This document shows positions 21,002 through 62,482 of a DNA stretch of 64,000 bases, one piece after another. Both the position numbers and the translations under genes were made by a program. The notes beneath the pieces were generated by a model, which was not told where the DNA came from, did not search any database, and saw only the letters and a list, made by a program, of their open reading frames with translations. Position 1 is the stretch's first letter. Every line of letters starts with the position of its first letter. This DNA comes from Nitrososphaerota archaeon (GTDB lineage: Archaea > Thermoproteota > Nitrososphaeria > Nitrososphaerales > Nitrosopumilaceae): contig JAGWFS010000003.1 in NCBI GenBank assembly GCA_028867785.1, positions 62,001 through 126,000 of the forward strand. Direction: 5' to 3'.

Positions 21002-22012
21002 CTAATTTTTGCCACGAATTGAAACCTTTGAAAAGATTACAATCGAAATTAAAGCCACTATCAAGACATATACTGGAATAGGAAATTCTGGTACCGGTAG
21101 AATTACTTTGGAAATATTAGAGAGCGTTATGGTATGAGTGGAAAAGTGAGGAATTGAAACAATTATCTGTGCACCGTGTTGTGTTATAAGAATAGCATAG
21201 CTTGGCTCATCAGTACTTTTTGGATGTAGCACTGCATTTACGTCAGTGGCAGGCGCTATTGGATGACCATCATATGTGACGTGTAGGTACTTTACATTTG
21301 AAACATCGATTGTGGTGCTGTTGAGATTGAAGACCATCACCTTGGGACCCGACTCTGTCTTTGAATCCACAGTAACGCTAACAGCATCACTTGTGGAATT
21401 CGTGTGCACGTCGATGTTACTGTCAATTGATTTGGTTTCTTCATTTCCTTGCCCGATATTAACTTCTGCCGCAACAGTCTTGTTTTCTATTGCATTTTCT
21501 ACATTATTAGCATCTTGCTGGTTTTCTTGATGTGTAGCATTTTCATTATTGTTTTCATTATTAATTTCGTCTATTCCCTCTTGATTAGCTTGAGGCTGAT
21601 TTTCTCCTTCGGTTTTATTTTGATTATTTTCATTTGATGATTGCTGATTATATTCTGATTGATGTTCGTTTTCTCCAAGATGCTCAGTTTCATTTTCTCC
21701 TTGATGTTCTGAGTAGGTTTGATTGTTCTCTTCATTAATTTGTGTATTATTACCTTTTGATTGCTGTTCATTTTTGGTTTGATCACTTTCTGTGCTGTGT
21801 TCAGATGAACTATTGTTACTGGCATTATTGGATTCTGCAAATGCCTCGCCAAAAAGACTACCAGTCTGAGAATTCAGATGTGAATCTATGGAAGCATAGT
21901 TTTTGTCAGATTTTTGGAAAATAATTGGATTAATTTGAAAGCCCAAAATTAAGATAGAAATAAGAAAAATACTTCCAACTCTATTACTAATCACATAGAA
22001 ACGCCTTACCAC
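21002..22012 (-). CDS. Surface protein with Asn/Gln/Glu-rich region and PEF sorting tail
   Basis: A 336-residue exported protein. It has an N-terminal membrane or signal segment (IFLISILILGFQI), then about 150 residues of low-complexity sequence dominated by Asn, Gln, Glu, Ser and Thr, then a compact beta domain of about 90 residues (HVTYDGHPI, ILITQHGAQIIVSIPHFSTHTITL). It ends with VPEFPIPVYVLIVALISIVIF and a basic tail, a PEF-type sorting signal. Many NxS/T sites in the low-complexity region suggest heavy N-glycosylation. It looks like a surface stalk protein. Confidence 0.65.
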   Translation of the reverse strand: MVRRFYVISNRVGSIFLISILILGFQINPIIFQKSDKNYASIDSHLNSQTGSLFGEAFAESNNASNNSSSEHSTESDQTKNEQQSKGNNTQINEENNQTYSEHQGENETEHLGENEHQSEYNQQSSNENNQNKTEGENQPQANQEGIDEINNENNNENATHQENQQDANNVENAIENKTVAAEVNIGQGNEETKSIDSNIDVHTNSTSDAVSVTVDSKTESGPKVMVFNLNSTTIDVSNVKYLHVTYDGHPIAPATDVNAVLHPKSTDEPSYAILITQHGAQIIVSIPHFSTHTITLSNISKVILPVPEFPIPVYVLIVALISIVIFSKVSIRGKN

Positions 22013-56310: not shown

Positions 56311-56421
56311 CATACGGTGAACACTACGTGGCGTATTGTCAGTTTCTGACATGCCAGATGATCTCGTTTGCAACTAATCTCAACCCAACAGATTAAAGAA
56401 TAGTTTAGCGCACAATACAGT

Positions 56422-57675
56422 ACGAAAGAGATCATCCCAAGAGGAAACATTGCCGTACTTGTCATTGCAACGTCGATTTCTGGTGCAAGCAATGTAGCGC
56501 TCTCGTTTCTGCCTATTTATTTTACCTCGCTTGGGGGAACTGTACTCCAGTACGGAACAATCACAACATTTGCCACGCTAATTGGGATACCGGCAACAAT
56601 TGGTGGCGGAGCAATTGCAGGAAGACACAGTCTCAAAAAGATCGCAATCCTGACATCATGGATAGGACCTGCCGTAATTTTTGGCTATTACTTTTCGAGC
56701 AGCTGGACCGTGCTTTCAATTCCGATACTGATTGGCGCCGTAGGTGCAGTCGGCTCTACTGCCTGGCGACAGCTTGTGTCTGACGCCACCGTACAAAAAA
56801 GCAGAACTGCGCAGCTATCGCTTTACCAAACTCTTACCACGTTGCCCTCCATGTTTGCACCTCTTGTTGGTGGATACCTAGTGCATACGATGGGAACAGT
56901 TGATGGATTCAGGGTAGGGGCACTGGTTGCGCTTGCAATGTCTCCAATTTCCACAATATTGCTAGTCAAGTTCTTGCGTGAAAAAGGCTCGAATATGATA
57001 CAAATAGAACACAGACAGTCGGCACACAATAGGCCCGAACCACTAGAATCTGCGTCTCGCTATACAAAGGACTTTTGGTCTAACTTTACCAAGCTTCCAA
57101 AGGCATTGATTCCACTGCTATCGGCCTATGTGCTTGTCATAGTGGCAAATTCCACAACAAGCCCGTACCTGATATTTTACGGAACTGCCATTGCAAAATT
57201 TGACAGTTTTCAGTGGGGAATAATCCTGAGCTTGCAGCTCTTGTTTGCAAACATGGTCAGGACTCCGCTTGGAATCATATCTGATAGGTTTGACAAGAGA
57301 AAGGTACTGCTGGTATCTGTCATCACGACAGCACCGCTCTCAACATTTCTCATACTGGAGAATTCTTTTTGGGGCATACTTGGGATATTGCTTGCCATGA
57401 TTGCTACAGGTGTAAGCTATGGGCCCACGCATGAGGCCATTCAGATTGAGATGACCCCAAGGGAGAGAAGACCGGCATTGTTTGCAATATACGACGTGCT
57501 GCGAAACGCATCAGTGTCAGCTGGAACAATGATTGGCGCAGTGCTTTTTACCATAAACTACGCACTACCGTTTTACGGTTTTACCATCATAGAAGTGTGC
57601 GCGGGGGCAATCATAGCCTGTGCATTCTTTAGAAAATCTTGGAGACAAAAACCGGTTGCTGTCACATCACAATAA
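56422..57675 (+). CDS. MFS transporter lacking a canonical start codon
   Basis: A 12-helix MFS protein. ATG/GTG/TTG start only appears at 56710, which would delete the first three helices. In the same frame, from ACG 56422, the sequence reads KEIIPRGNIAVLVIATSISG, then ALSFLPIYFTSLGG and the conserved loop GRHSLKK, giving a normal 417-residue protein. A TATA-like TTAAAGAATAGTTTA lies about 25 bases before 56422. Either the ancestral ATG mutated to ACG, or ACG is used. GIISDRFDKRKVLL is the second-half loop motif. Substrate unknown. Confidence 0.7.
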   Translation, partial: TKEIIPRGNIAVLVIATSISGASNVALSFLPIYFTSLGGTVLQYGTITTFATLIGIPATIGGGAIAGRHSLKKIAILTSWIGPAVIFGYYFSSSWTVLSIPILIGAVGAVGSTAWRQLVSDATVQKSRTAQLSLYQTLTTLPSMFAPLVGGYLVHTMGTVDGFRVGALVALAMSPISTILLVKFLREKGSNMIQIEHRQSAHNRPEPLESASRYTKDFWSNFTKLPKALIPLLSAYVLVIVANSTTSPYLIFYGTAIAKFDSFQWGIILSLQLLFANMVRTPLGIISDRFDKRKVLLVSVITTAPLSTFLILENSFWGILGILLAMIATGVSYGPTHEAIQIEMTPRERRPALFAIYDVLRNASVSAGTMIGAVLFTINYALPFYGFTIIEVCAGAIIACAFFRKSWRQKPVAVTSQ

Positions 57676-57676
57676 A

Positions 57677-58441
57677 TTACAATGCCTGTGCAGTATACAG
57701 CGACTGTATCGAGCCGTAAAATCTCTGCAGGTCGGAGATCGAGCCTGCATCGACGTCTCCAGATTTTTCAAGGCCCTGCCTTCTTGACAGGACCTCATCA
57801 CATTGTTCCGTATACCTGTTTGTAACGTCCTCTATCCTGTCCTGAGAAAAGGCAATCACATAGACATACTGTTTTTTCCAGTTTCTTTCGTAATAGTGCG
57901 GATTGTCAAAAGAGTGAGGGTACTGGAACGTAGAGTCTGTATGGAACCACCTGTTATCAAGAAGTACTTCATTCCAGCAGTGATCCAGATAGTCGTATGC
58001 AATTCGTGATTGGATGGATACGGAATTCAGTACGGCACCAAAGAGTATGGACCACTCGCCGCACCTTCCATATCGAGTCTCTGCTATTTTCAACACGTCA
58101 CTGTATCTTGGAATTGTCTTTTCTGCGCCACACTTGCTGCAGGTATGAATCTCGGTCTTGCGCACCTGCCAAGAATTTCCTGTCTCTACTTTTACTTGCA
58201 TGGGAGAGTCGCCTCCTGCGTTGCATTTGTCACATGCAATCCTGTTTGGAGTCCAAGTCATGAAATTTTTGAACCATTGCAACAGCGATGGGACCGGGTC
58301 TCCTTCCAGTACGTCTTTTGGTATGATGTTTCTGACAGATTTTAGGACTTGCGGGTCGTTGTACTGGCTTGTAATTGTCTTGTAGAAGAGAAAAGAGTTC
58401 TTGATTGCGTCAAAATCAAGACTAGAACAGTTTGGCTGCAT
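57677..58441 (-). CDS. Transglutaminase-fold protein with peptide:N-glycanase-like active site
   Basis: A 254-residue soluble protein. A zinc site is formed by C70/C73 (CDKC) and C101/C104 (CSKC). The catalytic triad is C127 in GRCGEWSILF, H154 in DHCWNEVLL and D169 in WFHTDST. This order, the RCGEW and DHxWxEV motifs and the W-x-H-x-D end are those of Png1/NGLY1, which removes N-glycans from misfolded glycoproteins; Cys-to-His spacing (27) equals the yeast enzyme. It lacks the eukaryotic PUB domain. It is convergent with the MFS gene (one base apart). A transglutaminase or protease role is the alternative. Confidence 0.7.
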   Translation of the reverse strand: MQPNCSSLDFDAIKNSFLFYKTITSQYNDPQVLKSVRNIIPKDVLEGDPVPSLLQWFKNFMTWTPNRIACDKCNAGGDSPMQVKVETGNSWQVRKTEIHTCSKCGAEKTIPRYSDVLKIAETRYGRCGEWSILFGAVLNSVSIQSRIAYDYLDHCWNEVLLDNRWFHTDSTFQYPHSFDNPHYYERNWKKQYVYVIAFSQDRIEDVTNRYTEQCDEVLSRRQGLEKSGDVDAGSISDLQRFYGSIQSLYTAQAL

Positions 58442-58518: not shown

Positions 58519-59055
58519 ATGAATCGCATCATAGTAGTTTCAGGCATAGCCGTATTTATCGCAGTCATATTTGGGATCATACCTGCCGCCAGCTCTTACA
58601 TGGTAGGAACTCATGAGAGATATCTTTACTGCCCATATCAGTCAAAAAATTCTTACGCAAAGGAATTTTACATAACAATAGACGGGGAGTCTGACATGAA
58701 AAGTTGTACGCTGACCCATTCCTGTTACAGGCCTCAGGTACTGGTCGTAGATTGTTATTCCAAAGTTACATGGCAAAACAACGATGCTAGCACGCACTTG
58801 ATCTCAAGTGGAAGTCGAGATGACGGTCCAAAAGGATGGTTTGCAAGCACTATGCTAAATCCAGGCGATATCTACTCTTACGTGTTTGAGCGACCTGGAA
58901 TATACAGATATTATGATCCTACGCACAGCTGGGCAGAGGGAACAGTAATAGTAAAGAGCGGCAACAAGGACATAGATTCAGAATGGATAAAATTTGTAAA
59001 TGGACCAAACTGCACTTTGGGCGAACCCAATTGTACCCATCCTAACTTGAAATGA
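58519..59055 (+). CDS. Exported cupredoxin-fold protein without the copper Cys
   Basis: A 178-residue protein with an N-terminal signal or anchor (IAVFIAVIFGIIPAASSYM) and a cupredoxin-like domain: VTWQNNDASTHLISSG has the first His; PGIYRYYDPTHSWAEGTVIV is the C-terminal loop, in which Asp stands where type 1 copper proteins have Cys. Five other Cys could form disulfides. It may bind copper differently (type 2) or no longer bind it. It is divergent from the PNGase-like gene. Confidence 0.65.
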   Translation: MNRIIVVSGIAVFIAVIFGIIPAASSYMVGTHERYLYCPYQSKNSYAKEFYITIDGESDMKSCTLTHSCYRPQVLVVDCYSKVTWQNNDASTHLISSGSRDDGPKGWFASTMLNPGDIYSYVFERPGIYRYYDPTHSWAEGTVIVKSGNKDIDSEWIKFVNGPNCTLGEPNCTHPNLK

Positions 59056-59133: not shown

Positions 59134-60141
59134 TCAAGCCGTAGGCATGTCCTTGCCTGGCTTGTGCAGTATAGTGACCTGCTTGTTCATCAGTTCCTTT
59201 GTCGGTATGACTATGCTCTCATTTTTCTCGTTTGCAACTATGACGTGCAAGAGTTCGACTGCAGTGATTGTTCCTGAGATGTCCCCTACCTTGATTCTCT
59301 GGCCAATCTTGAAGACTGTTCTCTGGGTTGACGCACCTGCTATTGCAGCAGGCAGCACGTCTTTGAGGGTAAATCCAAGTCCCACAGCGACGGCAGCACC
59401 TATGGCAATTGCGATGCTCCATGAGAATGCAGAGACAAGCGTTGGAATCACAGACTGGCCTACTCCAATCTGTGTCAGACCCACTGCAAAGACAATGCTG
59501 TAAATTACTGTCTTTACTCCGATTCCGACATATCTTGTACCGCCATAGTGTCTTACCATCATTTCGTGGTTTACCCACTTGATTACATAGTTTGCAATTA
59601 TAGATCCTATGAGAACAATTAGTACAAAGGCAAGCAGGTTTGGAATCCAGAGCCACAGCGAGGTCATTGCAGTAGTCAGTTGCTGCAGTTGCAATGCGTT
59701 GATTGCTGCCACTACAAAGAACAGGTAGACAAACCACTTTATTGTAGAGGCAATTAGATTGACAGAATCAAACTTGCCGACAGTTTCTTCCACCAGATGA
59801 AAATCTGAGATGTTCTCCACGTTTGCTTTTTGCATTATCTTTCTTGCAGTCTTTTCTACCACTCTGCCAACTAGCTTTCCTGCAACAAAGCCAATTGTCA
59901 AAAGTATGCCGGCTGCTATTATTTTAGGGGCAGCTCCTGCAACAGAGCTTGCAAAGGCAGTGATTGCTGCTGTCTCAGGCTCGTAAAACTTGCCAGTCGA
60001 GGTATCGGTTTGTGCATACGCAGAGTTTATGCCAATACCTAACACAATTACTGAAAATATCATTACGCCGTAAATGGACAGAGTCAAACTGTTTCGGATT
60101 TTTCCTGATGCCAGCATTTTTTTCTCTGCGTTGCGTGGCAT
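59134..60141 (-). CDS. MscS-type mechanosensitive channel
   Basis: A 335-residue membrane protein. An N-terminal hydrophobic segment ending in AYAQTD looks like a signal sequence. Three or four membrane helices follow, with a pore-type Gly/Ala-rich helix AIAIGAAVAVGLGFTLKDVL and a beta domain FKIGQRIKVGDISGTITAVEL, VIPTKELMNKQVTI. These are the MscS fold signatures. It releases solutes on hypo-osmotic shock. Confidence 0.85.
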   Translation of the reverse strand: MPRNAEKKMLASGKIRNSLTLSIYGVMIFSVIVLGIGINSAYAQTDTSTGKFYEPETAAITAFASSVAGAAPKIIAAGILLTIGFVAGKLVGRVVEKTARKIMQKANVENISDFHLVEETVGKFDSVNLIASTIKWFVYLFFVVAAINALQLQQLTTAMTSLWLWIPNLLAFVLIVLIGSIIANYVIKWVNHEMMVRHYGGTRYVGIGVKTVIYSIVFAVGLTQIGVGQSVIPTLVSAFSWSIAIAIGAAVAVGLGFTLKDVLPAAIAGASTQRTVFKIGQRIKVGDISGTITAVELLHVIVANEKNESIVIPTKELMNKQVTILHKPGKDMPTA

Positions 60142-60420: not shown

Positions 60421-61665
60421 GTGTTTGAGGCCAAAGTTAATGTTAAATTGGTTTGCCCCTCCAAACTTGGAATGGACGAGTTCGAAGAGTTTGCGTTTGC
60501 CCTTTTGGACCAGATTTCAGTTGAGATCACAGAAGAAAATACAATAAAAGAATCCCAGTCAAAGGCTACACAGGCCTTTGCCTCAAAGATGGCCTTTGAT
60601 GACATCATGACAATATCTGAAAAAATCCTTCCAAGCATTGGCCAAGAGGTGTCACAGTTTACAGGAATCGAAGTGCCTGACAACAAGATAGAGTTCCCCG
60701 ACCTGTTAGAGTTCAAGCAGCTAAAGGGCCGCAAGGTCTTTCCGGCAAAAAACTCGGCTGCATTTGTAGACGAGCTCTTTACCGCACTAGCTCAGGAAAA
60801 CGCGGAGAAAATAGCGCATCTTGCAAAAAACAGCACCCGGCAGTTTCTTGTATACTCTACATATGCAAAAGGATACATCTCACAGATATCTACAACGTAT
60901 GGAGATTTTTACGAGTCTGCAATATACCTAAACAAGTTTGTTCTTTCAAGCTATCCCCAGATAATTTTGCACAAGCAGGGGCCTCCCTACGAATCAAAGT
61001 TTGATCAGGTAAACTCTGGATACTTGGGTGCCTTGAAGATGACAATACTTGAGGAACAGGTCCATTCCATCCAAAAAAACCTCTATGAAATAAACAAGAA
61101 TGCGGTGACTCGCGTAAATGAGATAAACGAAGAGCTTGCAGACATAATTTTGTCCCTTGACAGCACCAAAGTAAAAAACCTCTACGAATATCTGCAGCTT
61201 CCGCTTGTGCCAGACGAGTACCCAATAGCACAGAGAGCAAACCTCTTTTTCGCCCTAAACCCTGACAACTTCATAGTCAGAGTGCTCGGCCCTGACGTGA
61301 TGACATTTAACAAGGTGTCAGTTGACCCAAAGATTCTTGAATTCATACCTCAGCTGCTTGACATCTACCAAAGATGGCTTGTTCCGATACAGACCCACCA
61401 TGCTGCATTTACAACAATGGAAGGAATGGCAGAATTTTCAGTCAGAAACATACTAAAAGACGACCAAGATTTTCACAGTTATCTTGTCACGTTTGCAAAC
61501 ACGGACATTTCATCATATCAGGTAAGAAAGAGCATGGGAATGGATTTCACAGAATATGTGACTGGAAAAATTGGCAAGGGTGCGTACAAGATGTTAATTG
61601 ATAATCCACCTACAACAAGAGAGATCAAGAATCCTGAAAGTTATACCAAGAGAACATATGAGTAG
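60421..61665 (+). CDS. Hypothetical 414-residue helical protein
   Basis: A large soluble protein from GTG 60421, without Cys-rich or membrane regions. It is mostly helical, with one short acidic stretch (MDEFEEFAFALLDQISVEI). HHAAFTTMEGMAEFSVRN and YVTGKIGKGAYKMLID near the end are possible active-site or ligand regions. Its stop overlaps the start of the SirB1-like gene. The family is unknown to me; high conservation among thaumarchaea would be expected for such a long soluble protein. Confidence 0.6.
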   Translation: MFEAKVNVKLVCPSKLGMDEFEEFAFALLDQISVEITEENTIKESQSKATQAFASKMAFDDIMTISEKILPSIGQEVSQFTGIEVPDNKIEFPDLLEFKQLKGRKVFPAKNSAAFVDELFTALAQENAEKIAHLAKNSTRQFLVYSTYAKGYISQISTTYGDFYESAIYLNKFVLSSYPQIILHKQGPPYESKFDQVNSGYLGALKMTILEEQVHSIQKNLYEINKNAVTRVNEINEELADIILSLDSTKVKNLYEYLQLPLVPDEYPIAQRANLFFALNPDNFIVRVLGPDVMTFNKVSVDPKILEFIPQLLDIYQRWLVPIQTHHAAFTTMEGMAEFSVRNILKDDQDFHSYLVTFANTDISSYQVRKSMGMDFTEYVTGKIGKGAYKMLIDNPPTTREIKNPESYTKRTYE

Positions 61666-62482
61666 TTTTGATCCATTTATAGAAGAATGGGTTGCGTATG
61701 CAAAAAATCCGCGATATTCCCTTGTGGAAAAGTGCCTAAAGCTTGCCCAGACTCTGGAGTTTCCCGACCTTGATGTGACTCATTATGCGAGAAAGCTAAA
61801 CTCCATGGGAGAAGAGCTGCGAAACACAGTCTCTGATGTGAAGAACCCTACGTACCTTGTCTCCATGTTAAACGAGTACATGTTTGACAACCTGGGATTT
61901 TTAGTAAACAGTGATGACTATTACAACCCAAGAAACAATTTTTTGAACATAGTAATTGACAGAAAAACTGGGATTCCAATTACACTGTCAATAATTTACA
62001 TCCAGCTTGGAAGATACATAGGGCTGGAACTAAAACCAGTCGGTTTTCCAGGGCACTTTTTGGTGAAGTATTCAGAAGAGATGATACTTGATCCCTTCAA
62101 CAGGGGCGCACTACTGGATGTTGACGACCTGCAGACGATGCTTGACAACATCCATGGCAGCGGAGTGCAGTTCAGTCCAGAGTATCTAAACGAGATAGAG
62201 CCTGAGAACATACTTGTTCGAATTGCAAAAAACCTCAAAAACTCTTACATACAGTCATTTAACTACAAGATGGCCATGCACTGCATTAACATGGTTCTTG
62301 GCCTGCACCCTGACGAACCAGATGAGATAAGGGACATGGGAATCGTACAGTCTCGACTGCTCCAAAATAACCTTGCATTAAGGCTGCTTGAAAGATATCT
62401 TGAACTTGCACCTGAGGCAAATGACGTAGACTATGTGCTGGATTTGATAAGAAGCATCAAGGAAAAGTCTACTCAACGATAG
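61658..62482 (+). CDS. SirB1-like transglutaminase/TPR protein
   Basis: A 274-residue protein from ATG 61658, overlapping the previous stop; the frame extends upstream to 61598 but the overlapping ATG is preferred. NPRNNFLNIVIDRKTGIPITLSIIYIQLGRYIGLELKPVGFPGHFLVKY is a SirB1/TgpA-like transglutaminase core with the conserved GFPGHF and DPFNRG, although the canonical catalytic Cys is absent. The C-terminal 90 residues look like TPR helices. It is probably regulatory. Confidence 0.75.
   Translation: MSSFDPFIEEWVAYAKNPRYSLVEKCLKLAQTLEFPDLDVTHYARKLNSMGEELRNTVSDVKNPTYLVSMLNEYMFDNLGFLVNSDDYYNPRNNFLNIVIDRKTGIPITLSIIYIQLGRYIGLELKPVGFPGHFLVKYSEEMILDPFNRGALLDVDDLQTMLDNIHGSGVQFSPEYLNEIEPENILVRIAKNLKNSYIQSFNYKMAMHCINMVLGLHPDEPDEIRDMGIVQSRLLQNNLALRLLERYLELAPEANDVDYVLDLIRSIKEKSTQR

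Follow-up and report, generated by a model that had tools for sequence, protein, structure and literature searches.

Does a soil ammonia-oxidizing archaeon encode a relative of Png1/NGLY1, the cytosolic peptide:N-glycanase (PNGase) that eukaryotic cells use to remove the sugar chains of discarded glycoproteins, and what might such an enzyme act on? Published work presents cytosolic PNGase as an enzyme conserved in eukaryotes (PMC12753239, PMC8997433), and knowledge of archaeal proteins from the wider transglutaminase superfamily goes back to 1999 (Makarova et al., as cited in PMC2866665 and PMC8997433). Full-text searches of open-access papers turned up none that names an archaeal Png1; subscription papers and database annotations lay beyond their reach, and prior notice is possible.

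The gene considered here, png1, lies in a stretch of 64,000 nucleotides from a Nitrososphaerota archaeon (the window, to which all positions refer). A first-pass annotation of this DNA had proposed that one open reading frame (ORF) carries a complete PNGase-type active site. Its placement of the ORF was exact, and its residue numbers, motifs and Cys-His spacing were all right; the strand, absent from that annotation, is minus. The frame begins with ATG and encodes 254 residues, and its sequence, architecture and fold lend strong support to the PNGase-type assignment.

Sequence, active site and predicted fold

In a phmmer search against all PDB sequences, the significant matches are mouse PNGase (2f4m, E 3.5e-32, 115 bits) and yeast PNGase (1x3w, E 6.8e-29; 3esw, E 7.3e-29) only, the sole further entry listed having an E of 1.5. 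A profile built from nine close archaeal relatives recovers the same three PNGase sequences (E 1.3e-35 to 1.9e-32). Pfam gives only the general Transglut_core model (PF01841, E 5.8e-12) and a sub-threshold Rad4 match (residues 175-225, E 4.1e-5, 23.7 bits where the cut-off is 27), so an automatic pipeline would probably label it "transglutaminase-like protein". Neither the PUB (p97-binding) nor the PAW (mannose-binding) domain of animal members is found by Pfam in the 254-residue protein, and the source genome encodes no other PF01841 protein. Viral contigs (searched by profile) and phage records hold no closer relative, and plasmids yield two weak partial matches, neither of them closer. No signal peptide or transmembrane segment was found in the protein (highest 19-residue mean hydropathy 1.05), and from this lack of a hydrophobic segment it is predicted to be cytosolic.

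A PNGase as the best PDB match is weak evidence by itself, because a control, a membrane-anchored archaeal transglutaminase-like protein of another family, also matches PNGases best (37 bits against 115), in an alignment that does not cover a zinc region. As read from the sequence, the case for kinship is carried by the score, the zinc ribbon, a set of Arg, Trp, Glu and Trp residues, and an RR tail (Table 1). The motifs run in the order C70xxC73, C101xxC104, R126-C127-G-E-W, D153-H154-C-W-N-E-V and W165-F-H-T-D169. Residues were mapped through one alignment (A3), and human numbers were assigned by counting along the mouse PDB sequence from its catalytic Cys. The Cys-His-Asp triad is invariant in the 37 archaeal rows of a second alignment (A2), and the triad and all four zinc cysteines are kept in the full-length relatives from two families of ammonia oxidizers. 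The Cys-His spacing of 27 equals that of yeast (C191/H218). The His-Asp spacing is 15 rather than the 17 of yeast (H218/D235), and 15 is also the spacing in Dictyostelium PNGase, whose triad is C210/H237/D252 (PMC3502110). The Arg, Trp, Glu and Trp highlighted in the Dictyostelium enzyme have counterparts in R146, W156, E158 and W165 (PMC3502110). Among human NGLY1 positions with catalogued disease-associated variants (PMC9102325), the archaeal protein has the identical residue at W236, W244, C283, E311, R328, D386, R390 and R402, the last of which is deleted in one patient; it differs at Y342, C355 and L318.

Table 1. Positions of png1, its mapped residues and its named neighbours in the window
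Feature	Position	Strand	Basis
Predicted Png1/NGLY1-type peptide:N-glycanase homologue	57677..58441	-	ORF and translation, PDB sequence matches, model and fold search
First zinc CxxC pair, C70 and C73 (yeast C129/C132)	58223..58234	-	A3 mapping; yeast zinc cysteines per PMC9102325
Second zinc CxxC pair, C101 and C104 (yeast C165/C168; human C283/C286)	58130..58141	-	A3 mapping; PMC9102325
Catalytic Cys C127 in RCGEW (yeast C191, human C309)	58061..58063	-	Alignment; invariant in 37/37 rows of A2
R146 (yeast R210, human R328, Dictyostelium R229)	58004..58006	-	Alignment; invariant in A2
Catalytic His H154 in DHCWNEV (yeast H218), with W156 and E158 (yeast W220, E222)	57980..57982	-	Alignment
Catalytic Asp D169 (yeast D235), after W165 (yeast W231)	57935..57937	-	Alignment
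SRR tail motif, S219-R220-R221 (human S400-R401-R402)	57779..57787	-	Alignment; missing from zinc-less short archaeal forms
MFS transporter, convergent with png1	56404..57675	+	Pfam MFS_1, 8.3e-31
MscS-type mechanosensitive channel gene (mscS), upstream of png1 on the same strand	59134..60141	-	Pfam; synteny and empty-site comparison

An AlphaFold2 model built on an alignment of 37 archaeal sequences has a pLDDT of 93.6 and a pTM of 0.91. The first-pass annotation had named a fold match to a non-PNGase transglutaminase subfamily as counting against its proposal; no such outcome was seen, and in a Foldseek search of the PDB the PNGase entries 2f4m, 2f4o, 1x3w and 3esw rank first (E 3.2e-16 to 3.3e-14, TM to query 0.65-0.74). 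XPC/Rad4 entries form the second group (best E 7.9e-7) and a bacterial putative cysteine protease comes third (E 2.0e-4 to 4.2e-4); other transglutaminase-fold entries stand at 2e-4 or weaker, with transglutaminase 2 at 6.8e-3 or weaker. The Foldseek rmsd is high, 5.7-16 A over 269-307 alignment columns, which means that domain placement differs or that poorly fitting parts are included in the alignments.

The ORF is thus, on sequence and predicted structure, a close relative of eukaryotic cytosolic PNGase. With Png1/NGLY1 it shares an N-terminal helix, a zinc ribbon with four aligned cysteines, a transglutaminase core with the Cys-His-Asp triad and the Arg/Trp/Glu/Trp set, at about 40% identity across the aligned core, and with mouse PNGase it also shares the RR tail. 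It differs in being three residues longer after the catalytic Asp, in its archaeal host and, compared with animal members, in having no PUB or PAW domain. These two domains do not define the family, because the published description of yeast Png1 lists only zinc, core and Rad23-binding regions (PMC9102325). Set apart by description are PNGase F, PNGase A and PNGase H+, which catalyze the same class of reaction, the release of Asn-linked glycans. These enzymes belong to unrelated folds or families, are secreted and act on native glycoproteins.

Distribution and genomic context

The source organism is a soil ammonia-oxidizing archaeon. Its genome has two copies of archaeal amoA, on contigs C261 and C222 outside the window, and two amoA genes also occur in two other genomes of the genus (G268 and G303). 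Other tested genomes of the window's family (f1) and of a second ammonia-oxidizer family (f3) have amoA, and none tested from families f27, f37 and f5 does. The named relatives come from Thaumarchaeota/Nitrosopumilaceae metagenome bins.

Full-length zinc-type png1 is present in 11 of the 31 genomes of the window's genus and in 34 of the 70 f3 genomes, spread over 10 of 12 genera; the copies in G503 and G556 carry internal stops. Among 398 genomes across the phylum and 300 across the class, no further family with this full-length form was found. Other families of the phylum instead have a short zinc-less form (about 170 residues) or membrane-anchored forms. The short proteins (L017-L023, for example L023:1336-1842) have the N-terminal helix and a PNGase-like core with the triad, but neither the zinc ribbon nor the RR tail. 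Their best PDB match is mouse PNGase (E 1.2e-23), which they resemble very closely in triad and core, and they occur in families lacking amoA, with one match of that kind in the window's own family (G644). They are possibly an older or minimal version of the enzyme. In loci L024-L028, from other families of the phylum, PNGase-like transglutaminase cores form part of longer proteins whose hydrophobic ends are probably anchored in the membrane.

Selection on png1 is purifying, and the gene is being kept as a protein. The dN/dS ratio against five relatives (NG86) is 0.04-0.11, with dS near saturation for four of them; the closest pair (with L002) has the only unsaturated dS, 0.388, at a dN of 0.043.

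The stop codons of png1 and the convergent MFS gene are one base apart. The MFS frame is open from 56404 and contains no ATG, GTG or TTG until 56710, so its true start is unsure; it may use an uncommon start codon or have an altered 5' end. Within the window's genus, the MFS gene was found in 9 of the 11 genomes with png1 and in none of the 20 without it, and it adjoins png1 in the same place in two f3 genomes (G227 and G452). In G378, a genome that lacks png1, genes for a SirB1-like protein, a hypothetical protein and the MscS channel occur in order, and neither png1 nor MFS follows mscS. The two genes behave like a single cassette, acquired or lost as a unit. In six f3 loci (L080, L089, L090, L093, L109 and L110), an M1-family aminopeptidase gene is instead divergent from png1, and most other f3 loci have neither neighbour beside it. 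Such neighbours give a hint, no more, of a part in peptide or glycan catabolism.

Several other features of these loci were observed. The M1-family aminopeptidase of the six f3 loci has HEAT repeats. Between png1 and mscS, positions 58519-59055 encode a small protein with a hydrophobic N-terminus that appears cupredoxin-like by eye and has no Pfam match; the gene is also present in L002, and in pieces in L006. At 61598-62482 there is a second transglutaminase-fold protein, SirB1-like with Transglut_core2 and TPR matches, which is unrelated to the PNGase branch.

Phylogenetic placement

A maximum-likelihood tree was built on the core domain, leaving out the zinc ribbon; its eukaryotic rows are mouse and yeast only, and it includes no Asgard sequence. 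In this tree, the 31 rows from ammonia oxidizers form one clade (99/95), which is sister to mouse and yeast Png1 (99/99) and apart from the short forms. The zinc ribbon and RR tail, common to the eukaryotic and ammonia-oxidizer forms, agree with this arrangement. Constraining either the ammonia-oxidizer proteins or the eukaryotic ones to group with the short forms costs 17.9 log units in each case (AU p 0.053), and long branches are present. These rival placements are thus disfavoured, although their rejection is not firm.

With two eukaryotic rows to go by, the sister relationship may reflect transfer from eukaryotes, transfer to eukaryotes or common descent. The patchiness of the gene, and the position of two sequences from the window's genus (L047 and L048) nearer to those of f3, suggest transfer among ammonia oxidizers too. 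Indels of two and three residues beside the catalytic Asp, for which mouse, yeast and the short archaeal forms have one state and the zinc-ribbon archaeal forms the other, were considered as a marker of descent and dropped: Dictyostelium has the archaeal His-Asp spacing (PMC3502110), so that the spacing varies within eukaryotes. It may even be, although this is a speculative and rather doubtful scenario, that eukaryotic Png1 descended from, or is co-ancestral with, the zinc-ribbon enzymes of ammonia oxidizers. The removal of N-glycans in the cytosol would then predate the eukaryotic endoplasmic reticulum and its degradation pathway, and the archaeal role would be the turnover of chitobiose-type N-glycoproteins with recovery of ammonia.

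Probable function, substrate and significance

The product of the gene is probably an archaeal representative of the Png1/NGLY1 family that works as a cytosolic PNGase, with catalysis, substrate and cellular role read across from the eukaryotic enzymes. The C127 thiolate, activated by H154 and D169, would attack the side-chain amide carbonyl of an Asn bearing an N-linked GlcNAc-type sugar. A thioester would form and the glycan would depart as a glycosylamine, later decaying to free glycan and ammonia, while water would resolve the thioester, and the residue left in the peptide chain would be Asp. The zinc ribbon (C70/C73/C101/C104) would hold the second wall of the substrate cleft. The probable role would be the cytosolic clearing of chitobiose-linked N-glycans from unfolded glycoproteins or glycopeptides, in turnover or uptake. 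Ammonia is the energy substrate of ammonia-oxidizing archaea, and its release may be an attractive benefit to them.

What such an enzyme would act on is less straightforward. The first-pass annotation had pointed to surface proteins in the window rich in NxS/T sites, an argument that fails: there are 103 sequons against 105.4 expected after shuffling, and the only sequon-rich candidate (21005-22012, 12 against 7.7 expected) has a hydrophobic N-terminus. The plausibility of a substrate rests on better evidence, the single STT3/AglB gene of the source genome and, by analogy, the N-glycan of another soil ammonia oxidizer, Nitrososphaera viennensis. Its S-layer and multicopper oxidase proteins bear a hexasaccharide at N-x-S/T, the first two sugars of which are a chitobiose core (PMC12153357). 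Such cores are common to Thermoproteota and eukaryotes (PMC8993221). The first sugar in N. viennensis is Hex(NAc)2 and not plain GlcNAc, so the specificity of the enzyme would have to differ somewhat, and the marine Nitrosopumilus piranensis has no apparent N-glycosylation (PMC12153357). The main puzzle is how a cytosolic enzyme would come upon glycoproteins that lie beyond the cytoplasm. In archaea, N-glycans are attached on the outer side of the cytoplasmic membrane, whereas the protein carries no signal peptide and, to our knowledge, no archaeal retrotranslocation has been described. Unfolded glycoproteins or glycopeptides would have to come back into the cytosol, or else the cell would take up its substrate from its surroundings.

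Import is the basis of a reading that keeps the same chemistry and changes its role. Glycopeptides from other soil organisms would be taken up and deglycosylated in the cytosol for their peptide, sugar or ammonia, with the MFS transporter or the M1 aminopeptidase acting in the same route. This would remove the topology problem and supply the energy source of these archaea, and the association of png1 with both neighbours is consistent with it. However, the MFS protein matches mostly drug-efflux-type models, most f3 loci have neither gene, and the genes of a short, linked cassette can be inherited as a unit without a common function; scavenging is a possible role, if a somewhat unlikely one. 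It is improbable that the Png1 fold and triad instead serve a transglutaminase, deamidase or isopeptidase acting on non-glycosylated proteins. The protein does belong to the transglutaminase superfamily, AtPng1 has been reported with transglutaminase as well as PNGase activity (as cited in PMC2866665), and it is not obvious which glycoproteins an archaeal enzyme in the cytosol could act on, but R146, W156, E158, W165 and the zinc ribbon are conserved PNGase features beyond the triad, and in fold the other transglutaminases match far more weakly.

A DNA-repair factor related to XPC/Rad4, an inactive branch of the same fold, is a highly improbable identity. XPC/Rad4 proteins have lost the active triad and have BHD (beta-hairpin) DNA-binding domains. 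The sub-threshold Rad4 match and the second place in the fold search are the points in favour of such a factor; the archaeal triad is intact, the chain stops at residue 254 with no BHD model matched, and PNGases fit better by about nine orders of magnitude. A true N-glycanase activity is the likely one for the archaeal Png1 homologue, judged from sequence and model. Counting against it is the patchy occurrence of the gene, missing from 20 of the 31 genomes of the genus and 36 of the 70 in f3. High identity is also no guarantee of deglycosylating activity, because Drosophila Pngl is reported to have none (PMC2866665) and filamentous fungi have lost triad residues of their PNGase (PMC9102325).

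The window encodes a complete, well-preserved Png1/NGLY1 relative in an ammonia-oxidizing archaeon. The finding matters on two counts: the literature treats the family as eukaryotic, and the surface proteins of these archaea themselves bear a similar sugar core. The family is also of medical interest through human NGLY1 deficiency, and an archaeal protein as small as this one could make a convenient structural model or reagent. We know of no described enzyme for the recycling of N-glycoproteins by archaea, and a homologue in two families of ammonia oxidizers makes such recycling testable. It likewise makes testable the source of the eukaryotic deglycosylation step, beside archaeal chitobiose synthesis, which has already been traced (Agl24, PMC8993221).
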